Source: Roseovarius sp. (GTDB lineage: Bacteria > Pseudomonadota > Alphaproteobacteria > Rhodobacterales > Rhodobacteraceae). From it: a stretch of 64,000 nucleotides of DNA. The first letter of the stretch is position 1. Every line of letters starts with the position of its first letter. Of the stretch, positions 24,572 to 39,203 are shown piece by piece. The DNA lies in assembly GCA_021775255.1 (NCBI GenBank), contig JAJFIA010000011.1, forward strand, positions 1 through 64,000, given 5' to 3'. The notes beneath the pieces are model-generated. The model saw only the letters and a list, made by a program, of their open reading frames with translations, made no database searches and was not told where the DNA came from. A program made the translations under genes and the position numbers.

Positions 24572-24587
24572 ATTGGAGGCGAGTACC
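24572..24587. repeat. Left attachment repeat (attL)
   Basis: ATTGGAGGCGAGTACC, identical to 38158-38173. It is a displaced copy of the last 13 bases plus flank of tRNA-Cys (minus-strand reading GGTACTCGCCTCCAAT). It lies 129 bp before the integrase start. Beyond it the two sites diverge completely, so recombination took place within these 16 bp. Confidence 0.88.
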
Positions 24588-24716: not shown

Positions 24717-25991
24717 TTGCCGCGCCGAACACTTAAGGAACTGACCGCCTTTCAGGTCGATAAGCTGGAAAAGCCGGGCTACCACAGGGTTGGTGGCGTG
24801 AGTGGACTGTGCTTGCAGGTAAAGGCAACTGGTTCAAAGTCGTGGGTGCTTCGGATGACGTTTGGTGGCAAGCGTCGTGATTTGGGGCTTGGTAGCTATC
24901 CGTCAGTTACTTTGAGCATGGCTCGTGAAAGGGCGCGTATGTCACTAGACCGGGCTTGGGCCGGATATGACCCTGTCGAGGAGCGCCGAGCGCTACGTGA
25001 AATTTCGAAACCAACTGTCGAGAGTGTGAATGCAAAGACCTTCAAGCAATGCGTCTTGGAGTTTTGCCAGGACAAAATCATGCACCAGAAGAACGCACAC
25101 CGCGCTCGCCAGCAGTTTGAGAATGCATTGGAGGCATATGCGTTCCCGATCTTAGGGGAATTGCCCGTTGATAAAATCGAGTTGGATCATATCCTTCAAA
25201 CTCTGCGACCCATTTGGAAAGAAAAACCAGATACCGCATCGCGGGTGCGTAGTCGAGTTGAGCGTGTCTTGAATTGGGCGACAGTAAGCGGTCATCGGGC
25301 GGGCGAAAATCCAGCGAGGTGGCGTGGCCACTTGGATCAAATCCTAGCTCCCCCAAGCAAGCTGCGGGTGCAGGGCCACCACCCTGCGTTGCCGGTGAAT
25401 GACATGCCTGATTTCATGGGTTCTCTTAAAAAGCGGAAAGTTTCGAATTCAGCATTAGCTTTGGAATTCCTAATACTGACAGCAAGTCGCTCAGGCGAGG
25501 TGCGCAACGCTGAATGGAGCGAAATCGATTTTGACCAGAAAGTATGGAATGTGCCTGCGGGGCGTACAAAAACCGGAAAGAGTCACCGTGTACCGCTTTC
25601 TAAGCAAGCATTAAATGTTCTCGCCGCAACGCCTCGGTTAGCTGGTGCAGATAGGATTTGGAGTGGCACCTCTGGTAAACCTATGTCCGACATGACGATT
25701 GCTGCCATTGTTAAGAAAATGAATGCAGCTGAAGAGTCAGCGGGTGGGGACGGATGGAAAGACGCACAATCTAATCGTGTAGCAACCCCGCATGGTTTTC
25801 GATCAACCTTCCGGGATTGGGCTGCAGAAGAGACCGAATGGCCAAGAGAAATGGCTGAAATCGCGCTGGCGCATAATATGGGGTCTGCCGTGGAGCGTGC
25901 ATATCGACGAACTGACATGTTGGAACGTCGGCGTGCAATGATGCAGGATTGGGCTGATTTTGTTCATGGGACGCTGACCCCGGCCACTTAA
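24717..25991 (+). CDS. int: P4-type tyrosine recombinase (integrase)
   Basis: 424 residues starting with TTG at 24717, preceded by AGGAG 7 bases upstream. The N-terminal DUF4102 arm-binding domain (about 1-95, with GLCLQVKATGSKSWVLRM and LGLGSYPSVTLSMARE) is followed by a core-binding domain and the catalytic domain: R258 (TASRSGEVR), H359/R362 (HGFRSTFRDWA), H386 (ALAHNMG) and nucleophile Y396 (AYRR). All catalytic residues are present, so it is probably active. It lies just inside attL, and integrases of this group commonly use tRNA 3' ends. Confidence 0.95.
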   Translation: MPRRTLKELTAFQVDKLEKPGYHRVGGVSGLCLQVKATGSKSWVLRMTFGGKRRDLGLGSYPSVTLSMARERARMSLDRAWAGYDPVEERRALREISKPTVESVNAKTFKQCVLEFCQDKIMHQKNAHRARQQFENALEAYAFPILGELPVDKIELDHILQTLRPIWKEKPDTASRVRSRVERVLNWATVSGHRAGENPARWRGHLDQILAPPSKLRVQGHHPALPVNDMPDFMGSLKKRKVSNSALALEFLILTASRSGEVRNAEWSEIDFDQKVWNVPAGRTKTGKSHRVPLSKQALNVLAATPRLAGADRIWSGTSGKPMSDMTIAAIVKKMNAAEESAGGDGWKDAQSNRVATPHGFRSTFRDWAAEETEWPREMAEIALAHNMGSAVERAYRRTDMLERRRAMMQDWADFVHGTLTPAT

Positions 25992-27995: not shown

Positions 27996-30276
27996 CCTCC
28001 AACCCAACCCGCAAAAGGCAATCGAATGGTATCTTTGGCTGAACGGAAATAAGCAGATGCACCTCGAACATTTCAATAGTCAGGGCTCAGCGCGGCCAAA
28101 GGGCAAATTCTACCAAGCAAGTGAGGCAGCATCAGCCGTCCGTTTCGTTTCCGCTAACAATGGCGACGAATACCAGCGTAACCTTCATTTTGTCCCGAAT
28201 GCTGAATTTCTTGATGGTCCGCGTATCAAAGCAAACCTTAAGGCGGTGCGTTTTCTTCACGTCGATTTGGATTGCAAAGACTATCCCGGCACCTACGACG
28301 ACCAATTTAACAAGATTACAGAGCTGCTTCTCGACGCAAAGAAAAGCCCTAAAGGGATGCCACCACCTACAACAGCGTGGTTCACGGGCGGCGGCGTTCA
28401 GGCAATTTGGTTGCTTGAAGAGCCCATCGGTGTTGACGAAGCGGAAGAGCTGAACCTTGCTCTGCTGACGGCGTTGCAGGGTGGGCCGGGTACTCATGAT
28501 GCAAGCCGCCTTCTTCGCCTTCCTTGGACAACAAATTGGTTGAACGAAAAAAAGCGTGCAGCGGGGCGAGAACCAAAACTCGCTTTCCCTCTTGAGCCAT
28601 TGAATACGAATTCGCCTCCTGTCTCGTATGCAGTGGCGGAATTCAAAGTCAAACGCGTAAAGCGCGACGTCAATGCGCGCCCCAGCCCCGTATCCACTGA
28701 GGTTACTATTCCTGAGTTTGAGGCTTTGCCTTTGCCCGAGAACCTTAATGAGGTCGTGCCAGATGACCCAATATGGTTTGAAGCGATTTTGACGGGCAAG
28801 TATCCGCAAAACAAATCCTATGGATCGCGTTCAGAGTTTGTCATTGCAGCGGTTATGTGGCTGTTGAGCAAAGGCGTTGAGCCCGGTCACGTTTTGTCGA
28901 TCATCACACATCCTGATCTTGGGGTTAGTAGCCACGTTCTAGATAACCCAAGTCCTCTCAAATATGGCAAACGTCAGGTGGAGCGTGGGTTTGTTTTGCT
29001 TAAAATAAGTCGCGGAGGCTGGCCGCTCGTTAACGATGAAGGTTTCCCCATCGCAAATCTGCCTGAGAACATTCGTTATGCCCTTTGCCAAATTGGCGTA
29101 GATGCTCAACGAAACTTGTTCACACAAGCCGACGAAGTGACCGGGTACAACCTCAATGGGCGCGATTTGAACGAGATTGCAGACATTCTTTGCAGTGCGA
29201 TCAGCCGGGAATTGAAATTCGGTGCCAATCCTGCCGCCATCAAGCGGGAGCTATTGGCTATTTCCCATGAGCACCCATATCACCCAGTTGTCGACTACCT
29301 GGATGGTTTAGACTGGGATGGAACCCCTCGCATCGCCCGTTGGTTGGTCGAGTACTGCGGGGCAGTGGATAGCGAATTGAACGGTGAGTTTGGTAGCAAA
29401 TTCCTCATCGCTGGTGTGCGTCGGATCAAACAGCCGGGCGTCAAGTTTGACACCATGCTTGTACTGGAAGGTGCGCAAGGCGCGGGCAAATCTCAAATGG
29501 CGGCAATGCTGGCCATTCAAGATGAATGGTTCTGCGGTAGCTTGGATTTAAAAAGTGACGATAAAACTAAGGCCGAACTGTTGGCGCGAGCGTGGATTGT
29601 AGAGTGTCCTGAGCTTGATGGCTTGAACAAAACCAACAGCCAAAGTCTCAAGAAATTTCTGAGCACGCCAATTGATATTTACCGCCGACCTTACGCTCGC
29701 GATCCCAGCGATTTTCGGCGGCATTGCATCATTCTAGGCACCACAAATGAGAGCAACTATCTGCGTGACCTAACAGGCAACCGGCGCATCTGGCCGGTGG
29801 TGGTTGGCCGGTTCGATCTGAAGTGCTTTGCGGCAGATGTCGATCAACTGTGGGCAGAGGCGGTAGTGCGTGAGCGAGAAGGTGAATCCATCGTTTTGGC
29901 CGAGCACCTTTGGGCTGAAGCAAGTCGCGTGCAGGGTAAACGCATGGTTGAAGATGATTTCGCAGACATGCTTGCAGACAACTTCGCAGATCGTACAGGG
30001 AGGGTGTCAATGGAAAGTGTTAAACTCATGCTACGCTTAGATACGCAGCGTCTGCTCCCAAGCGATGTGAAACGTATCAAGAGTGCTATGCGGGGTCTTG
30101 GTTGGGAATATGGCACACATCGTTTGCATGATTTGGCGCAGGCAAATCAGCGACCTAGAAAGGGCTTCACACGCGGAACGGACGATGCGTGTCGCGAGGA
30201 ACTCATTGCTACCCAGAAACAGGGTGGCGTGTTCGTGCTCGAAACCCTGAAAAGTCAGAGAGACGTGCCATTTTGA
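27985..30276 (+). CDS. RepB-like primase fused to VapE/virulence-associated E helicase domain
   Basis: 763 residues. The N-terminal RepB/AEP primase-like domain (about 1-230) has the acidic motif HVDLDCKD, the TAWFTGGGVQAIWLL strand and HDASRLLRLPWTTNW. A linker and middle domain follow, then a superfamily III-like ATPase with Walker A LEGAQGAGKSQMAAML (about residues 492-507), Walker B AWIVECPELDGL and an arginine-containing GNRRIWPVVVG. This is the replication initiation unit of P4- and PICI-like satellites. Ribosome site GGAGGGG 7 bases before ATG 27985. Confidence 0.9.
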   Translation: MPNNLQPNPQKAIEWYLWLNGNKQMHLEHFNSQGSARPKGKFYQASEAASAVRFVSANNGDEYQRNLHFVPNAEFLDGPRIKANLKAVRFLHVDLDCKDYPGTYDDQFNKITELLLDAKKSPKGMPPPTTAWFTGGGVQAIWLLEEPIGVDEAEELNLALLTALQGGPGTHDASRLLRLPWTTNWLNEKKRAAGREPKLAFPLEPLNTNSPPVSYAVAEFKVKRVKRDVNARPSPVSTEVTIPEFEALPLPENLNEVVPDDPIWFEAILTGKYPQNKSYGSRSEFVIAAVMWLLSKGVEPGHVLSIITHPDLGVSSHVLDNPSPLKYGKRQVERGFVLLKISRGGWPLVNDEGFPIANLPENIRYALCQIGVDAQRNLFTQADEVTGYNLNGRDLNEIADILCSAISRELKFGANPAAIKRELLAISHEHPYHPVVDYLDGLDWDGTPRIARWLVEYCGAVDSELNGEFGSKFLIAGVRRIKQPGVKFDTMLVLEGAQGAGKSQMAAMLAIQDEWFCGSLDLKSDDKTKAELLARAWIVECPELDGLNKTNSQSLKKFLSTPIDIYRRPYARDPSDFRRHCIILGTTNESNYLRDLTGNRRIWPVVVGRFDLKCFAADVDQLWAEAVVREREGESIVLAEHLWAEASRVQGKRMVEDDFADMLADNFADRTGRVSMESVKLMLRLDTQRLLPSDVKRIKSAMRGLGWEYGTHRLHDLAQANQRPRKGFTRGTDDACREELIATQKQGGVFVLETLKSQRDVPF

Positions 30277-30634
30277 TTTCCAAAAGCGTGGGTAGCGTTA
30301 CATGTTACCCGCGCCAAACTGCGCATACCTATTGCCGGAGCTGGGGGTGGTTTACTACCCCCCTTTTTTGTTACTGCTGTTCAACCAAAGTTACAGTTAC
30401 AGGTAACATCTTACTGCTTAGCCCCATTGCCATTTTGCGCCGCGCTGGGCGTCTTTTGCTAATTAGGCAGCATGGTGCAGCGTATATCACCATAGGTGGC
30501 CCCAGCGGACGCCTGAGGACGTTTGGCGTTGCCCTTTGGGTTAGTACCTGTTCGTGCATGTCAGTAGCAAATCTGGTAGACCAATCCGGGGTATCCCTCT
30601 AGAGTTGAACAAAAAGTTGAGAAAGAGCAATTCT
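30277..30634. promoter_or_regulatory. 358-bp control region between replication module and hsd operon, with GTTAC repeats
   Basis: Holds the terminator at 30343-30369, five direct GTTAC copies (30297, 30304, 30370, 30390, 30396) and one inverted GTAAC (30403) in about 110 bp, with GTTAC-AG-GTAAC as a dyad at 30396-30407, and GGGTA/TACCC at 30290-30310. The hsdM promoter must lie in the right half. The repeats could be operators for hsd control or origin iterons for the primase. The frame upstream of hsdM (from 30554) is an extension without ribosome site. Confidence 0.5.
30343..30369 (+). terminator. Rho-independent terminator after the primase-helicase
   Basis: GGGGGTGG-TTTA-CTACCCCC forms an 8-bp stem (one G-T wobble) with a 4-nt loop, followed by CTTTTTTG. 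It lies 66 bp after the primase-helicase stop and separates the replication module from the restriction cargo. Confidence 0.85.
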
Positions 30635-32200
30635 ATGACAATTGAGTCCGAGCGACAGATTTCCCAAGATCTCGACTTCGCAGCCGACCTGTTCAAAGCC
30701 GCCGACAAGATGCGCGGTTCCCTTGAGCCATCCGAATACAAACACGTCGCCCTCGGCCTGATCTTTCTTAAATACATCTCAGAAGCCTTTCAGGCGATGT
30801 ATGACCAGCTCAAAGCCGACGACCTCGCCAACGAAGAAGACCACGAGGAATATCTGGCCGAAAACGTGTTTTGGGTGCCAGAAAAAGCGCGCTGGGCGCA
30901 TATTCAGAAAAATGCCCGTTCCGACGAAATCGGCAAAATCATTGACGACGCGATGGAAGCGATTGAAACCGCACCGGCAAACGAAACCCTCAAAGGTGTC
31001 CTGCCCAAAAACTACGCCCGCCCGACGCTCGACAAAACCATGTTGGGCGAGCTGGTCGATCTGTTCTCCAACATCAAACTGCACAACAGCAAGGACCGCG
31101 CCCGCGATTTGTTGGGGCGCGTCTATGAATACTTCATTTCGGGTTTTGCTGGGGCTGAGGGCAAGCGGGGTGGTGAGTTTTTCACCCCCCGTTCGGTTGT
31201 GCGCACACTGGTTGAAATGCTGGAACCCTACGAGGGCCGAGTTTATGACCCGTGTTGCGGATCGGGCGGCATGTTTGTGCAATCGGAAAAATTCATCGAA
31301 GAACACGGCGGACGCCCCGACAATATCGCGGTCTACGGGCAAGAAATTAACCACACCACATGGCGCTTGGCCAAGATGAACATGGCGGTGCATGGCATCG
31401 ACGCGGATATCCAGTGGAACAGCGCAGGCAGTTTTCATGATGACGCGCACGCCAGCCTGAAGGCCGATTTCATCATGGCCAACCCGCCGTTCAACATCTC
31501 TGATTGGGGCGGCGAACGGCTGGCCGAGGATACGCGCTGGCAATACGGCACTCCACCCAAGGGCAACGCCAACTTTGGCTGGCTGCAACATATCATCCAC
31601 CATCTGGCCCCGCGCGGCCATGCGGGGGTGGTGCTGGCCAATGGCTCGATGTCATCCCAAACCAATGACGAGGGCGAGATCAGGAAACAACTGATCGAAC
31701 AGGACCGCGTTGATTGTATGGTCGCCTTGCCGGGGCAGCTGTTTTATTCTACCCAGATTCCGGTTTGCCTGTGGATACTGTCGCGCAATAAATCCGCCAA
31801 TGGCCACCGTGACCGACGGGGAGAAGTGCTGTTTCTGGATGCCCGCAAGCTGGGTTATATGGCCGACCGTGTGCGACGGGAGTTTGCGGAGGCGGATATC
31901 GAAAAGATCGCGGGCACCTATCGGCGCTGGCGAGCCAAGCCTGAAACGCTGGCGGCGAAAGGCTGGGAGGCCTATGCCGACGAAGCCGGTTTCTGTATGT
32001 CCGCCGATCTGGACCTGATCCGCAAGTATGACCACGTGTTGACACCGGGGCGCTATGTCGGCGCGGCGGATATTGAGGACGATGGGGTGAGTTTTGAGGA
32101 GAAGTTTGAGGCGTTGAATCTTACGCTTGGCAAACAATTTGAAAAATCTAGGGCTCTGCAAGAAAACATTGAGGCCCAATTGCAGCGGATCGAACAATGA
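30635..32200 (+). CDS. hsdM: Type I restriction-modification system, methyltransferase subunit HsdM
   Basis: 521 residues from ATG 30635 ([20 protein letters not shown]); an earlier in-frame ATG at 30554 adds 27 non-conserved residues. The N-terminal helical HsdM domain (about 10-150) leads to an N6-adenine methyltransferase domain: SAM-binding [10 protein letters not shown] at 205-214 and catalytic NPPF at 283-286. It modifies host DNA at sites set by HsdS and, with HsdR, forms the restriction complex. Its stop overlaps the hsdS start (ATGA, 32197-32200). Confidence 0.96.
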
Positions 32201-33465
32201 TATTGTCTGATGTTATTGAGTTGAATCCACGACTTAGCCTCAAAAAAGGAAGTCTTGCACCATTTATCGAGATGGCAGCGTTGCCGATCTTAGGGAAACA
32301 CATCCCTGAAATTGGAGAGCGCGATTCAATAGGTTCGGGTGCGAAATTCCAAAACGGTGATACATTAGTTGCTAGAATTACCCCTTGCCTCGAAAATGGA
32401 AAAGGTGGGTACGTTTCAGGTTTGCCCCACGGCGCAATTGGGCAAGGTTCCACCGAGTTTATCGTCTTTCGCGCTAAGCATCCTGACGATGAGCAATTCG
32501 CATATTATTTGTCACGCCTCCCTGAGTTCCGCTCTTTTGCTGAGAGAGGAATGGAAGGAACATCTGGTCGGCAACGAGTTACATGGCAAACTTTAGCTGA
32601 TTTTGAGATTTTTCCTTTGAGCGCCACCCAACGACGGGAATTAGGCGAAATCCTAAGCGCACTCGATGACAAAATCGAACTGAACCGCCAGATGAACGAG
32701 ACGTTGGAGGCGATGGCGCGGGCGGTGTTTGTGGATTGGTTTGTGGATTTCGGCCCCACCCGCCGCCAGATGGCAGGCGAGACCGACCCCGTCAAAATCA
32801 TGGGCAACGCCTTCCCCGCCGCCAAAGCCCAAACCCTAGCCCCTCTCTTCCCCGCCACCCTAAACGAAGCTGGCCTGCCGGAGGGGTGGAGGCTGGGGAG
32901 GTTGGACGATTGGGCTTCTGTTGTAACAAAAACCACGAAGCCAAATGAGGTGGATCAGAATACCCACTACATCGGATTAGAACATATGCCGCGACGCTCT
33001 ATCGCGCTAAGTCAGTGGGAAACCGCCGCCAAAGTAACATCCAACAAGTCTGCTTTTGAACGTGGTCAAATACTGTTTGGAAAGCTTCGCCCCTATTTCC
33101 ATAAGGTCGGTATCGCACCATTCGACGGGATTTGCTCAACTGATATCATCGTTGTGGATGGGCTTAATCCGGAATTACGTGCTTTTGTCGCCACCATAGT
33201 GTCGACAGATGACTTTGTTTCTTACACCAACCAAAGTTCGAGCGGCACAAAGATGCCGCGTACCAGTTGGAAATTGATGCGAGAATATCCGTTGGCCCGC
33301 GCTGACAAAGAGTTGGTTTTTGCCTTTTCTCAGTTGATTCAACCGATGCATGACAAAGTATTGCAATCATTGATTGAAAACCAATCGTTGGCAGAAATGC
33401 GCGATCTGCTTTTGCCCAAGCTGATGTACGGCGAGATCAGCTTAAAGGCGGCTGCACATGGATGA
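32197..33465 (+). CDS. hsdS: Type I restriction-modification system, specificity subunit HsdS
   Basis: 422 residues with two target-recognition domains separated by a long conserved helix: TRD1 about 1-140, helix [20 protein letters not shown] and [17 protein letters not shown] (about 145-195), TRD2 about 225-385, and a C-terminal helix ([20 protein letters not shown]). The bipartite target cannot be predicted from sequence. The C-terminal codons overlap the FRG gene start by 8 bases. Confidence 0.94.
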
Positions 33466-34810
33466 TGGCGAGCCAATCCAAACGGCTGCGGAAAAGGAAG
33501 CACATGAGAAGGCCCGCGCGTACCTTGACGGGCTGCCCGAGTATCCAAATTTTGCATTGCCAAATGATGAGATCGACGGGCTGGTCCCAACCGCTAAAGT
33601 CAAAAACTGGCTGGATTTGTTTGTGATACTGCAAGGAAAGGAGTTTAAAAAGACCAAGAACGATATGATCTTTCGTGGTCATCGAGTTCATGATTGGCAG
33701 CTCGCTTCAACGCTCGGGCGTTGCTTCAAAGGAGGTGCGATTCCAAACGACAAAAGCAATGCACTTATGGAGCAGTTCCAGTTGGCAATGCGAGGGCGGG
33801 GATATGATCTCGGGCCATTGGAGGCAGACGAAGATGTTTGGGCCGTGGGTCAGCACTATGGGTTGAACACACCATTGTTGGATTGGACGCGCTCACCATT
33901 TGTGGCGCTGTTTTTTGCATTCATGAAATTCGAAGATGCAGACGCAACAGTGTTTAACCCAAGTCGTGCTATTTTCTGCTTGAACATGACGAAGGTCAAA
34001 GAGGATTTAGGTGCAGCAGCCGAAAATCTCTTCTTCGAGCCCAAAGACCATAGAAATTCAAGACTGGTGAACCAATCGGGCCTTTTCTCGATTGCGCCAG
34101 GTGGTGACGATAATCTCGTTTCTTTCCTGTTAAACGCTCTAGACGAACGGGAATTGCTTGCCTCCTCCGAAGAGTCCAAAACAACTGAGGGTGAAATTGA
34201 TCCATCTGCGAAGGGTGAAGCTTATTCAGAAGCCGCCTCTTCTAAACTTTTTGATGTTTCAGACGCGCAGCGAGCCAAAGATTTGTCGAAATATGTTTTC
34301 AAGCTTCATGTCCCAAATAGTATTGAAGATCGCAAAGATTGTTTAGAAACGCTTCGACAAATGAATATTCACGCTGGAAATCTGTTCCCTGATCCGGGCG
34401 GCGCATCGCAGTTTTGCAATGACTGGTTAGACCGCCTTATGGAAGATGAACGCGTTGAAACAACCGAAGAGATCGAAGCTGAGGAAAAGAAAATAGTCGC
34501 CACCGCGATCACAACTGCGTCTGCCCCGGATGTGCTAGGTCACATAGAGGAATTGTTAAATGCGTATAGTACACACTCCGATTTCGACTTGGCGGGCGTT
34601 CCGATGTTGTCTTCGGAAATCAAAAAAGCTGCAGATGGTGCAATGACCTTAGATTGGCAGGTGTCCGATTCTAAACGCGGAAGAGTCCGCCTCTCCATTC
34701 GTAAGGCTTTGGAAATCCATGGGTTTAAGGACCTGTCCCTCGTAGAAGGAAAGACATTAGTTGGAGACATCTTAGAAGTTTTTGTTAAACATGCTGGAGG
34801 TGGAAAATGA
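33458..34810 (+). CDS. FRG-domain protein embedded in the hsd operon
   Basis: 450 residues. The FRG domain occupies about residues 45-200: MIFRGHRVHDW (FRG at 72-74) and the diagnostic AVGQHYGLNTPLLDWTRSPF followed by VALFFAF. The remaining 250 residues are acidic and have no domain I recognise. FRG is a predicted nucleic-acid or nucleotide-linked domain of unknown activity often seen near defence genes. The start overlaps hsdS by 8 bases and the stop overlaps the micro-ORF (ATGA), so it is an integral part of the operon, not an inserted passenger. Confidence 0.85.
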   Translation: MDDGEPIQTAAEKEAHEKARAYLDGLPEYPNFALPNDEIDGLVPTAKVKNWLDLFVILQGKEFKKTKNDMIFRGHRVHDWQLASTLGRCFKGGAIPNDKSNALMEQFQLAMRGRGYDLGPLEADEDVWAVGQHYGLNTPLLDWTRSPFVALFFAFMKFEDADATVFNPSRAIFCLNMTKVKEDLGAAAENLFFEPKDHRNSRLVNQSGLFSIAPGGDDNLVSFLLNALDERELLASSEESKTTEGEIDPSAKGEAYSEAASSKLFDVSDAQRAKDLSKYVFKLHVPNSIEDRKDCLETLRQMNIHAGNLFPDPGGASQFCNDWLDRLMEDERVETTEEIEAEEKKIVATAITTASAPDVLGHIEELLNAYSTHSDFDLAGVPMLSSEIKKAADGAMTLDWQVSDSKRGRVRLSIRKALEIHGFKDLSLVEGKTLVGDILEVFVKHAGGGK

Positions 34811-34941
34811 AACCTCTCGGGCAGCTTCGACACTCTAATCTGGTAAGCTGGCACTTCGACCTCTCAGAACATTTTTCTGAAAGGACTGTCTGCATTTTTG
34901 GTTCGCCATTCTTTTTACTTTTATTCGAAGGTGAAAAATGA
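34807..34941 (+). CDS. Micro-ORF (44 residues) bridging the FRG gene and hsdR
   Basis: ATG at 34807 overlaps the FRG stop (ATGA) and the stop TGA at 34939-34941 overlaps the hsdR ATG at 34938 (AATGAG), so the ORF exactly fills the 127-bp gap. A near-perfect GGAGGT lies 5 bases before the ATG. The protein begins [20 protein letters not shown], has a hydrophobic stretch [11 protein letters not shown] near the C-terminus and ends EGEK. It may be a real accessory peptide or a translational coupling device setting HsdR levels. No homologue is known to me. Confidence 0.7.
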
Positions 34942-37900
34942 GTTTCACCGAAGAACTTGTCGAGAAAGCGATCCTGTCCACATTTGAGGAGTTGGGTTGG
35001 GCCTTTGCCGATCCCAACGTCATTGGGCCGGATGGCAGCGATAAGGCCCGCACGGCCTATTCGGACGTCGTTTTGGAAGGGCGGTTAAGCTCGGCGGTGC
35101 AGCGGATCAATCCTGACTTGCCACCCGACGCCATCGAAGACGCGCTGAAGAAAGTATTTGCGGTGGAAACCCCGTCGCTGATCGAGGAAAACCGCCGCAT
35201 TCACGCGCTGATTGTGCGCGGGGTCGATGTGGAATACAAACGCCCTGACGGGTCGATCAAAGGCGACAAGGTCTGGCTGATCGATTTTGCCTCGCCCAGC
35301 GCCAATGATTTTATGGTCACCAACCAGTTTACCGTTGTTGAGGCAGGCCACAACCGCCGCCCCGATATTGTTGGCTTTGTGAACGGCCTGCCGCTGGCGG
35401 TGCTGGAGTTGAAGAACGCCGCCAATGAAACCGCAACGGTGGATGCGGCGTTCGCGCAACTGCAAACCTACAAACAGGAAATCCCCAGCCTGTTTCGCAC
35501 CAACGCAGTTCTGGTTGCCTCGGATGGCATGTATGGCCGCATCGGCAGCCTGACCGCGCAGCGCGACAGGTTCATGCCTTGGCGATCAGTAACGGGGACA
35601 CAGGATGATTTCACCCCCGAAGGCCCGCTGGAAACCGATACGCTGATCCGTGGCGTTTTTGATCAGGCGCGGTTTTTGCAGTTGTTGCGTGATTTTACGG
35701 TTTACGGGGACAAAGGCGAAGGCCCGTTCAAGATCGTCGCCGGATACCACCAGTTTCACGGCGCACGCAAAGCGCTTGCCAGTTCGGTGAATGCGGTTGC
35801 CGAAAAAGGCGACCGCAAAGTTGGAGTAATCTGGCACACGCAAGGATCGGGTAAAAGCTTCCTGATGGCGTTTTATGCGGGGTTGCTGGTGCGTTCGGAG
35901 GCGATGGCAAACCCGACGGTTCTGGTTTTGACAGATCGCAACGATCTGGACGACCAGCTGTTTGCGACATTTTCCATGTGCAAAGATTTGCTGCGCCAAA
36001 CCCCTGAACAGATCGAAAGCCGCGATGATTTGCGCGAGAAGCTGGATCGGACGTCGGGCGGGGTTCTATTCTCGACCTTGCAGAAATTCTCCACCGAAAA
36101 AGGCGAAGAAGATTTTCCGGTTCTGTCGGATCGGCGCAATATTATCATCATGGCGGACGAAGCGCACCGCAGCCAATACGGATTTGATGCAAAGCTGGAA
36201 CAGGGAACCGGCATTCGCAAATACGGGTATGCGCATTATGTGCGACAAGCCTTTCCAAACGCATCCTTTGCCGGTTTCACCGGAACCCCGATTGAAGCCG
36301 TTGATGTAAGCACCCGCGCCGTGTTTGGTGACTACGTCGATATCTATGACATTAGCCGCGCGGTTGAGGACAAGGCAACTGTGCCTATCTACTACGAAAG
36401 CCGGTTAGCGCGTGTAGAGCTTGAGCACGACAAATTACCCCAAATCGACGCTGCGGTTGATGAGTTGTTCGACGATGAAAGCCTGTCAGAGCAAGAGCGC
36501 GCCAAGGCCAACTGGACAACGGTTGAACGGCTGGTCGGGGCAAAACCGAGGCTTGAAATTGTCGCGCAAGATATCGTTCAACATTTTCAAGCCCGACTTG
36601 AGGCGATGGACGGCAAAGCGATGGCCGTTTGTATGAGCAGGCGCATCTGTGTTGAACTTTACAATGAGATTGTTGCGCTTAGGCCGGAATGGCATTCTGA
36701 CTCGGATTTAGAGGGCCAGATCAAAGTTGTAATGACAGGCAGCGCGTCCGATCCCGTCGAATGGCAACAGCACATTGGCAACAAAGCGCGGCGGGATGTG
36801 TTGGGCAAGCGGGCGCGGGACGCAAACGACCCGCTCAAGCTTGTTCTGGTTCGGGACATGTGGCTAACGGGGTTCGATGCGCCGAGTATGCACACGATGT
36901 ACATCGACAAACCGATGCGTGGTCATGGGTTGATGCAGGCCATTGCGCGGGTAAACCGGGTGTTCAAAGACAAACCGGGCGGGCTGGTCGTCGACTATAT
37001 TGGGATCGGACAGAACCTAAAGAAAGCCCTTCAAAGCTATACGGCATCGGATCAGTCAAAGACGGGCGTGAGCGAGGAAGACGCTGTTGCAGCCCTTCAG
37101 GAGTTCTTTGAGCAGGCACAAGCGTTTTTTGATGGTCACGACTACACCAACGGTGTGGTTGGTACGCCAGCAGAGCGATTGAAGGCCTTGGCGCTCGCAG
37201 CAGATTTTACATTGAAAAAGCAAAAGGATGCTGCCGACGCCATCGCAGATGAAAAGGGCAAGAAACAAGCGTTGAACGAATTTCAGTCAATTGTTCAAAG
37301 TCTCGGTCAAGCCTTTGCGCTGGCCGCTGCAAGTGATTATGCGCAGGAAATCAAAGATGAAGTTGGTTTCTTTCAAGCAATCAAAGCAGTCATTTCAAAG
37401 TCCAGCCCGACCAAATCGAAGAGCCAAGCAGAGCGTGAGTTTGCTGTTTCTCAGTTGATTTCAGAAGCTATTGCCAGCGCGGACATTATCGACGTCTTGG
37501 CGGCAGCTGGTATGAAAAGACCCGAAATTTCAGTTTTGGACGATAGGTTTCTCGCTGAAGTCCAAAACATGGAGCAAAAGAACCTAGCCCTCGAAGCGTT
37601 GAGGCGATTGCTGGCTGGCGAGATACGGTCACGGTCCAGTCAAAACGTAGTTGAGGCTAAAGCGTTTTCAAAGCGTCTTGAAGACGCAGTCGCACGGTAT
37701 CACTCAAACGCAATTACCAGTTTAGAGATGATTCAAGAACTCATTAATCTGTCGAAGGACTTAAAGGCGTCAATTGAACGGGGGGATGAACTTGGCCTCA
37801 ATGTTGATGAACTAGCGTTTTACGATGCGTTGTCTGAAAACGAGAGTGCCGTAGAAGTGATGGGCAACGAACAACTACGCGTCATCGCAAACGAACTGGT

Positions 37901-38078
37901 CGAGCAGTTGCAACAAAACGCGACTGTTGACTGGCACAAGAAAGAAAGCGCTCGTGCAAAACTTCGTATCCTTGTTCGACGCATACTGAAGAAATATGGG
38001 TATCCACCGGACTTGGCTCCTTCGGCTATCAACCTTGTCATAGCGCAAGCCGAGTCCCGCCTTCGTTGGGAAAACTAA
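34938..38078 (+). CDS. hsdR: Type I restriction endonuclease subunit HsdR
   Basis: 1046 residues. The N-terminal PD-(D/E)xK nuclease has D143 (RRPDIVGF) and E157/K159 (AVLELKN). The SF2 translocase follows: Walker A TQGSGKS at 301-307, DEAH at 407-410, GFTGTPIE as motif III and the helicase C-terminal block [12 protein letters not shown]. All key residues are present, so the nuclease is probably active. A GAAGGTG ribosome site precedes ATG 34938. The C-terminal third is helical, for assembly on HsdM/HsdS. Last gene of the island before attR. Confidence 0.95.
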
Positions 38079-38123
38079 TAGATGGATCTAGTTCTAATGG
38101 GGGGCAATAGGGGGTCTTCGAAT

Positions 38124-38160
38124 AATTACACCATTAACATGTTGTTTTAATGGTGTAATT
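38124..38160. terminator. Perfect 14-bp inverted repeat between hsdR and tRNA-Cys
   Basis: AATTACACCATTAA (38124-38137) and TTAATGGTGTAATT (38147-38160) with a 9-nt loop. It lies 45 bp after the hsdR stop and its right arm ends inside the attachment repeat, abutting the encoded CCA of tRNA-Cys. It may terminate both converging transcripts, replace the tRNA's lost downstream processing region, or be a recombination-accessory site. It belongs to the element, since it lies left of the crossover repeat. Confidence 0.7.
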
Positions 38161-38173
38161 GGAGGCGAGTACC
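38158..38173. repeat. Right attachment repeat (attR) within tRNA-Cys
   Basis: ATTGGAGGCGAGTACC, identical to 24572-24587. It covers the CCA end, discriminator base and acceptor-strand 3' half of tRNA-Cys, so the gene remains intact after integration. Confidence 0.88.
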
Positions 38174-38233
38174 GGAATCGAACCGGTGTACACGGATTTG
38201 CAATCCGCTGCGTCACCACTCCGCCAACTCGCC
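38160..38233 (-). tRNA. tRNA-Cys (GCA)
   Basis: 74 nt including an encoded CCA. The acceptor stem GGCGAGT/ACTCGCC pairs fully, the anticodon arm is GCGGA-TTGCAAA-TCCGT with anticodon GCA, and the T arm is ACCGG-TTCGATT-CCGGT. The discriminator is U. Its 3' end served as the integration site of the island. Confidence 0.96.
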
Positions 38234-38508
38234 GTCCTGGGTGATGTAGCGCGCTTCTAGCGCTACCGGGTTCAACCTGCAAGAGGGTCTGTGGGTGTTA
38301 TGTCTGAAACTTGGTGAGGTTAGGCCAGAGACGATTCCGGCCTTTTACAGATGCTTTGCTGACCTGACTGCAAACGAATGGCAGCGGTTTGGGTGGGCTT
38401 TGGCAATCCGGTATCACGGAGGAATTTGGTGCACCTGACCAGAGGCCCGGTTTATCAGGCAAAGCTGATTTTGAGCGCCCTGTAACAGGCTGATTTCATG
38501 TGTGGATT
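38234..38508. other. 275-bp spacer between tRNA-Cys and tRNA-Leu
   Basis: No ORF with a ribosome site. GTAGCGC...GCGCTAC near 38241-38261 can form a 7-bp hairpin directly upstream of tRNA-Cys (its promoter side). The region presumably holds the tRNA-Cys promoter and the tRNA-Leu 3' trailer. Confidence 0.5.
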
Positions 38509-38594
38509 TGGTGCGGGCGGCGGGACTTGAACCCGCACGGCCATTCGGCCTCCAGATTTTAAGTCTGGTATGTCTACCATTCCATCACGCCCGC
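38509..38594 (-). tRNA. tRNA-Leu (UAA)
   Basis: 86 nt with long variable arm and encoded CCA. Acceptor stem GCGGGCG/CGCCCGC, anticodon arm CCAGA-CTTAAAA-TCTGG with anticodon UAA, variable arm GGCCG...CGGCC-like, T arm GCGGG-TTCAAGT-CCCGC. A class II tRNA, as expected for leucine. Confidence 0.95.
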
Positions 38595-38657
38595 ATTCGG
38601 CGTGATCACACCGAACGCGCGGACATTATCCGCAATGATCCGAATGATAAAGCCCGG

Positions 38658-39203
38658 TTATAGCTCTTCTTCATCTGCCTCAAGCGCGGGCAGCAAGGAG
38701 CGTTCCGTAAGCCATGGATTAAGCGCCAGCGCGGCGCGCAGTGAAAGCGCTGCTTCCGCCTTGCGGCCAAGGCCGGTGAGCGTCAGCGCCCGCCCGGAAA
38801 GTGCCGCGATATGACGCGGAGACAAGGCAATGGCGCGGTCCAGATCCGGCAGGGCCGCGCTGAAATCCTGGCGCAGAAAATTCACGAAAGCGCGCTGGTT
38901 ATAGCCCTCGGCATAGTCCGGGCAATAGGCCACCAGGGCATCCAGGGCCTTTTGTGCGCCCGCAAAATCATAGACCCGGCGGCGTTCCATGCCCTCATCC
39001 AGCAATTCCTGTGCATAGTCATCGGGCGCATCTGTCCAGATGGCCCAGAACTCGGGCGCGAGCTGCCGCGCGGCCCCTTCATCGGGGGCTGCTTGGGCCG
39101 CAGCAATCAACGCAGCGATGTCTTCGGTATGATCCGGCACAATGGGGCATTCCTGCGCCAAAGCAGGGGCCGCCATGAACAGGGCAAATATCGCGTGTTT
39201 CAT
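38658..39203 (-). CDS. Secreted tetratricopeptide-repeat protein
   Basis: 181 residues with a signal peptide (MKHAIFALFMAAPALAQ). Two to three TPR units occupy about residues 75-170, for example AEGYNQRAFVNFLRQDFSAA, LPDLDRAIALSPRHIAA and KAEAALSLRAALALNP, ending in an acidic tail (ADEEEL). Probably a periplasmic protein-binding scaffold. The partner is unknown; the next gene is an unrelated Lrp regulator. Confidence 0.8.
   Translation of the reverse strand: MKHAIFALFMAAPALAQECPIVPDHTEDIAALIAAAQAAPDEGAARQLAPEFWAIWTDAPDDYAQELLDEGMERRRVYDFAGAQKALDALVAYCPDYAEGYNQRAFVNFLRQDFSAALPDLDRAIALSPRHIAALSGRALTLTGLGRKAEAALSLRAALALNPWLTERSLLPALEADEEEL

Follow-up and report, generated by a model that had tools for sequence, protein, structure and literature searches.

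Does a 44-codon reading frame joined to both of its neighbours by stop/start overlaps encode a working peptide, or does it serve to carry ribosomes from one gene to the next? The question is raised by the window, a 64,000-nucleotide stretch of a Roseovarius sp. genome (assembly GCA_021775255.1, contig JAJFIA010000011.1), in which hsdM, hsdS, an FRG-domain gene, the micro-ORF and hsdR follow one another, each overlapping the next (Table 1). An earlier note, made from the sequence alone, had described a 44-residue ORF between the FRG gene and hsdR, with GGAGGT five bases before its ATG and ATGA overlaps with the FRG stop and the hsdR start; coordinates, length, ribosome site and both overlaps proved exact. 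For its function the note had offered two proposals, an accessory or inhibitor peptide and a tuning of HsdR translation by coupling. We read the micro-ORF as a translational bridge rather than a gene for a working peptide, with a probability of roughly 0.6, and its peptide sequence as probably irrelevant.

Table 1. Features of the type I operon and of the FRG-hsdR junction (window coordinates).
Feature	Position	Strand	Basis and remarks
hsdM	30554..32200	+	Longest frame; ATG 30629 also possible; overlaps hsdS by 4 bases
hsdS	32197..33465	+	Overlaps FRG by 8 bases
FRG-domain gene (PADLOC PDC-S15), HsdR-like C-terminal domain	33458..34810	+	450 residues; family matches
Upstream copy of 15-base junction motif, GGAGGTGGAAAATGA	34796..34810	+	13/15 identical to 34927-34941
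Shine-Dalgarno GGAGGT of micro-ORF	34796..34801	+	Inside FRG 3' end; anti-Shine-Dalgarno duplex -13.8 kcal/mol
Micro-ORF (candidate bridging cistron)	34807..34941	+	44 codons, 44 residues; ORF coordinates and translation
Downstream copy of 15-base junction motif, GAAGGTGAAAAATGA	34927..34941	+	hsdR ribosome site and ATGA overlap
Possible hairpin GGTGAAA / TTTCACC, hsdR ATG in loop	34930..34949	+	Folding of 34918-34965, -10.1 kcal/mol
hsdR, type I restriction subunit	34938..38078	+	Family matches

Architecture of the operon

Both ends of the micro-ORF are organised as in coupled cistrons, for which we looked for a stop/start overlap of 4 or 1 bases and a Shine-Dalgarno sequence inside the upstream cistron. 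The FRG stop (TGA, 34808-34810) lies within the ATGA at 34807-34810 that starts the micro-ORF, and the micro-ORF stop (TGA, 34939-34941) within the ATGA at 34938-34941 that starts hsdR. The GGAGGT upstream of the micro-ORF, spaced five bases from its ATG, pairs with the anti-Shine-Dalgarno at a calculated -13.8 kcal/mol, against -6.9 kcal/mol at the hsdR start. Nine starts in related loci range from -3.3 to -10.7, which leaves the micro-ORF site the strongest among the 11 starts compared. The possible hairpin around the hsdR ATG is weak evidence, because 8.9% of shuffled-insert controls were equally stable, which is not significant. The RNA fold of 34780-34960 gave a z of -0.82, and a search for structured RNA at Rfam gathering scores over 30000-39000 returned two tRNAs only.

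An exact 16-base direct repeat occurs at 24572-24587 and 38158-38173, its second copy at the 3' end of a tRNA-Cys gene (38160-38233, minus strand), and an ORF 3' of the first copy (24717-25991) reads as a tyrosine integrase. The repeat and the putative integrase suggest a 13.6-kb island, bounded by the tRNA-Cys repeat, that would carry DUF2026 and VapE-like genes together with hsdM-hsdS-FRG-micro-ORF-hsdR.

The window FRG protein matches the PADLOC model PDC-S15 (E 1e-115), and this model also matches the HsdR C-terminus (E 1e-10). In a profile comparison, the FRG C-terminus aligned with the extreme C-terminus of HsdR at a probability of 96.6 (E 6e-10), while the controls stayed lower: at most 1.6 for five HsdR windows lacking that end and at most 0.4 for five column shuffles, with 11.7 for one window holding part of the end and 0.1 for the end reversed. 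The HsdR-like domain comprises the last 60-70 residues of the FRG protein. HsdR is thought to dock on the methylase via its C-terminal part, and because of the resemblance the FRG C-terminal domain may be a docking module for the same type I complex. When the alignment of the FRG C-terminus was searched against the sequences of solved structures, it returned no HsdR and nothing below E 0.16, and the AlphaFold2 model of FRG was poor (mean pLDDT 53). Literature searches joining the FRG domain with phage defense found none, and those joining it with type I restriction found nothing evidently related.

Related FRG-hsdR operons and origin of the segment

FRG genes are rare at the cut-offs used: with the window's own genome counted each time, the genus yielded 1/84 genomes (its own), the order 2/390, the class 2/385 and the phylum 3/349. 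A first scan of genome contigs with FRG alone found no relative. Eight related FRG-hsdR operons were inspected (L037, L039, L040, G247, L004, L046, G701 and G1123). The order hsdM-hsdS-FRG-hsdR is annotated in L004 and was read from ORFs in G247, G701 and G1123; L046 adds a TIR gene. L004, from Rhizobium johnstonii, is the same locus as L038; its proteins and its gap recur unchanged in another record, L151. The eight do not include loci in which hsdR is not next to FRG or none was recognised (L041, G850 and three plasmid records), nor G257, where a C-terminal FRG fragment overlaps hsdR directly. Five of 20 plasmid records with an FRG match were inspected, the 15 weaker ones staying outside the count: two are from R. 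johnstonii, with the same operon and its 38-nt gap, and three have FRG away from hsdR.

In five of the eight relatives (L037, whose FRG is 54% identical to that of the window, L039, L040, G247 and G701), the FRG stop and hsdR start overlap directly by four bases; L040 and G247 are nearly identical at this junction. The other three have no direct overlap: FRG and hsdR are separated by 38 nt in L004, by 243 nt that no frame bridges in G1123, and in the viral contig L046 by the TIR gene, which ends 12 nt before hsdR. Coupling is therefore not obligatory. The 44-residue ORF was present in none of the eight. A gap that varies among related operons (here overlap, 38 and 243 nt) was what the earlier note itself had named as a refuting result, and it counts against a conserved peptide. 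As a separate observation, the TIR gene of L046 (6313-7335; PF13676, E 4e-11) places two effector-like genes in one type I operon.

Aligned with its relatives, the window FRG has a complete C-terminus, which makes the segment of about 131 bases an addition to the junction in the window genome and not a piece of FRG. The two copies of the junction motif share 9 of the 11 bases upstream of ATGA, a likeness that none of the 465 pairings among 31 other ATGA junctions equals (these were collected mechanically from both strands, related loci included). On the simplest reading that this suggests, the arrival of the segment duplicated one ancestral FRG-hsdR overlap, as in L037, from which both exact overlaps would descend. 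An alternative origin is a stub of a cargo gene shortened by deletion, plausible because the hsdS-hsdR slot is a cargo site: it holds pentapeptide and DUF4268 genes in G084, the TIR gene in L046 and, by annotation, SIR2, Fic, DUF4268, PDDEXK and abortive infection genes in plasmids. Similarity of the 44 residues to part of a known cargo protein was sought as the mark of such a stub, and no Pfam, PHROG, NCBIfam or PADLOC family matched.

Two further origins were considered. Local alignments of the segment with the rest of the operon were no better than shuffles, and tandem duplication of FRG or hsdR coding sequence was rejected at that level. The segment has one full copy in its own 27-contig assembly, where other matches span 14-18 bases, and a dispersed repeat or MITE was rejected accordingly.

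Exactness of the bridge and its possible recurrence before hsdR

To the earlier note, the arrangement looked too exact for an accident. With an ATGA at each neighbour, a frame that is open and in the right phase has nowhere else to start or stop than at the junctions. Random inserts of the same composition kept a frame of micro-ORF length open in 10% of mononucleotide shuffles and 22% of first-order Markov sequences. With the actual flanks, an exact bridge arose in 11.8% of shuffles at fixed gap length and in 3.8% when the phase was random too. Exactness alone is therefore modest evidence, and the note was right only in part, the bridge being unusual but not extraordinary.

The gap before hsdR was then considered across 75 loci. 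By the method used, five yielded no start and three no upstream gene; 67 remained, 59 of them distinct. The longest upstream frame was chosen, and shorter genes may thus be skipped, such as the FRG fragment of G257 (L013). Among the 59 distinct loci, hsdR overlaps its upstream gene, which varies, in 29; the gap is 1-20 bases in 4, 21-300 in 15 and more than 300 in 11. Counting as a bridge a mini-ORF of at least 8 codons with an exact double overlap in a gap of 21-300 bases, we found four in the 15 gaps: the window (44 codons), L023 (34), L029 (19) and L064 (24). With the window excluded, bridges fill 3/14 gaps against 0.25 expected (P 4e-4), or 0.12 with random phase (P 1e-4), and 3/10 when related loci are thinned.

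This criterion had been fixed after the first cases had been seen, and it was therefore rerun unchanged on 24 further loci, 10 on new viral contigs and 14 hand-picked from 60 plasmid records listed of 160; three had no upstream gene. None of the seven gaps in this set was bridged (0.01 expected). Pooling both sets, window excluded, gives 3/21 (Poisson P about 0.002 at 0.26 expected), a suggestive figure with which recurrence of bridges before hsdR is not established. A permissive criterion counted 7/15 gaps against 1.56 expected and was dropped as proof: L077 and L079 contribute TTG starts in an apparently non-coding leader, and L029 and L033 are related. L020 and L021 have similar TTG frames, which end too far from hsdR to count.

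The four bridge peptides have no pairwise BLASTP match at E 10. The ORF of L023 (1382-1486) matches positions 1-35 of the 159 of the DUF4411 profile and no more (E 5e-7), lies 3' of an IrrE-like peptidase gene and bridges exactly into an hsdR whose frame holds an in-frame TAG. From its match to this profile end, it reads as what is left of a cargo gene after truncation, with the bridge into hsdR intact, a parallel to the window.

Several further loci are described for their own sake. In the viral contig L064, the 24-codon ORF (2430-2504) shares an ATGA with hsdR and another with the preceding gene, which matches DUF6615; L065 is another contig whose hsdR is equally similar. L019 has a 143-codon ORF, putatively cargo, with no Pfam match and with ATGA overlaps to its upstream gene and to hsdR. 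L029 and L033 hold similar short frames of 19 and 17-18 codons between hsdS and hsdR; the L033 gap is one base shorter, its frame ends 4 bases before hsdR, and the exact overlap is lost.

A general scheme can be drawn in which type I operons with exchangeable defence cargo before hsdR keep an unbroken overlap chain into it, and in which, after loss of cargo or insertion of DNA, unrelated mini-ORFs (44, 34, 24 and 19 codons) are kept or created as product-free bridges that tie the HsdR dose to the rest of the complex. As a general statement, we hold this to be doubtful.

The same numbers bear on another explanation, that an insertion or deletion left the segment and its open frame there by chance, hsdR using its own ribosome site and the micro-ORF having no role. 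The shuffle rates of 3.8-11.8% agree with such a passive scar, as do the unbridged gaps in Rhizobium (L004) and G1123, the seven unbridged further gaps and a codon content that looks non-coding (below). It fits less well with a Shine-Dalgarno that is the strongest of the 11 compared, with the excess of exact bridges over expectation in the first sample, and with the strong distance dependence of coupling reported in the relevant passages of PMC10666635. Taken together, we consider a scar unlikely.

Evidence for and against a peptide

The micro-ORF could instead encode a working micro-protein, such as one that inhibits HsdR or the FRG protein, or a small membrane peptide, its product having a hydrophobic stretch of 12 residues. 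In favour of this are its own strong ribosome site and overlaps typical of operon genes. Phage T4 has a small effector of a type I system, Stp (known here through the references of PMC3874165). Homology searches speak against a micro-protein. No significant homologue of the 44 residues was found in plasmids (best E 4), in phages (best E 3) or in the 389 other genomes of the 390-genome order sample (best E 0.02, for one genome); a 12-residue back-translated pattern had no match in viral contigs, and Pfam, PHROG, NCBIfam and PADLOC gave no match. A distant search of plasmids with the FRG-hsdR junction DNA returned short chance matches only (best E 0.5). A conserved peptide was rejected on this record, with one copy in its own genome and none in the order sample, plasmids, phages, viral contigs or the four family libraries.

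Codon usage was compared with that of the operon, each gene piece being scored with its own gene left out of the reference and the micro-ORF against all four genes. The micro-ORF scored -0.158, and the other two frames of the same stretch -0.027 and -0.145. Among 455 overlapping in-frame 43-codon pieces of hsdM, hsdS, FRG and hsdR, a single one scored as low, whereas 31-48% of off-frame pieces scored as high as the micro-ORF. Its codons resemble off-frame sequence and look non-coding. Mildly opposite is the result with an FRG-only reference, where no more than 3.4% of shuffles do as well as the micro-ORF (17.4% when the reference is all four genes), and the GC content of the micro-ORF by codon position (0.50, 0.34, 0.41) follows that of FRG (0.58, 0.38, 0.47). 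The frame may be young rather than meaningless.

For a conserved small-protein gene we would look for homologues and for gene-like codon usage; the libraries, genomes and eight related operons supplied none of the former, and the 1/455 result goes against the latter, the FRG-only reference leaning mildly the other way. The micro-ORF bears no mark of an established gene. The accessory or inhibitor peptide of the earlier note is left unsupported by its absence from all eight relatives, the lack of a significant homologue or family match in the collections searched and the codon score, and a working micro-protein appears improbable.

Ribosomal frameshifting that fuses FRG to the micro-ORF, possibly on to HsdR, is suggested by both junctions, which read A AAA TGA behind a Shine-Dalgarno-like motif so that a -1 slip would enter the next frame, but is very hard to credit, since at the FRG stop just 2-3 bases separate the end of the Shine-Dalgarno from the slip site, which favours +1 shifts (as in prfB), the +1 frame there ends after nine codons, and no such extension is present on the FRG proteins of relatives.

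Coupling as the favoured reading

The other proposal of the earlier note, coupling, agrees with the architecture and with the comparison with relatives, from which we infer it rather than demonstrate it; it is the reading that we favour. Mechanistically, the segment would have arrived with a duplication of the ancestral 15-base junction, or would be a cargo-gene stub cut by deletion. Ribosomes finishing FRG would restart on the micro-ORF, aided by its strong Shine-Dalgarno, traverse it as far as the ribosome site of hsdR, where they would unfold any structure, and then restart on hsdR. In this way HsdR supply would stay linked to the operon, whereas with 127 bare bases in between most of the link would be lost. 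The hairpin around the hsdR ATG could make hsdR more dependent on upstream translation.

Published reporter experiments bear on this prediction. In the portion of PMC10666635 drawn on here, overlaps couple translation, for which the final 15 nt of the upstream gene are enough, and a 38-nt gap lowered reinitiation by 80-90% in two E. coli pairs and abolished it in a third. According to the corresponding part of PMC6728339, removal of the internal Shine-Dalgarno substantially reduced reinitiation in 4 of 5 E. coli pairs. As far as these excerpts go, hsdR should be uncoupled by 127 nt of bare gap and coupled again by any frame that spans them, whatever that frame encodes.

In favour of the bridge we count the 29 of 59 distinct loci in which hsdR overlaps its upstream gene and the five of eight relatives in which it overlaps FRG directly, together with the likeness of the two junction copies, the low codon score, the L023 parallel, the 3/14 bridged gaps and the published reporter results. 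On the other side stand the own moderate ribosome site of hsdR (-6.9 kcal/mol), the three relatives without direct overlap, the 0/7 further gaps, the FRG-only codon score and GC pattern, the TAG in the L023 hsdR, and an insert that matches no neighbouring sequence beyond chance.

If the bridge reading is true, certain small ORFs whose operon overlaps and ribosome sites are perfect owe their retention to being translated and not to a product, which would call for caution with micro-protein catalogues built on overlaps and ribosome sites. The dose of HsdR relative to HsdM and HsdS affects the safety of a type I system for its host, and coupling may be one means of setting it as cargo genes come and go before hsdR. 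The micro-ORF is ordinary in kind, and the wider pattern is unproven.

Comparison with known systems

The position of the FRG gene recalls EcoprrI, in which prrC sits between hsdS and hsdR; the window FRG gene likewise lies between hsdS and hsdR of a type I operon. In the passages of PMC3874165 concerned, EcoprrI is a type IC operon with the effector gene prrC embedded among its hsd genes, as FRG is in the window, and PrrC is sequestered in the type I complex. The difference is in the effector, as the window FRG protein matches FRG and PDC-S15 models and no anticodon nuclease.

A mechanistic counterpart is termination-reinitiation coupling at ATGA, which, going by the parts of PMC6728339 and PMC10666635 used above, shares with both window junctions the four-base overlap and the internal Shine-Dalgarno. 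The chain in the window differs in including a frame of 44 codons for which nothing indicates a product, the dependence of HsdR on it being predicted from those reports. A literature search joining hsdR, small ORFs and translational coupling found nothing evidently related. A four-base overlap likewise joins FRG to hsdR in five of the eight relatives.

In bicistronic designs, a second ribosome site is placed within a short cistron, as it is in the window micro-ORF. These synthetic leaders (PMC5995908, in the part relied on) have in common with the window a short first cistron upstream of the target gene; the window cistron differs in being natural and itself 3' of a third gene.

A precedent for translation without a needed product is the two-codon minigene of the axe-txe toxin-antitoxin operon, which, by the sections of PMC8708949 considered here, raises translation of the txe toxin in cis, possibly, it is proposed there, via mRNA stability. 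Within the range tested in those sections, minigene length was not critical, unlike the spacing between its stop and the start that follows. The minigene differs from the window frame in having two codons against 44, and in ending upstream of the txe ribosome site, as described there, instead of overlapping both of its neighbours.
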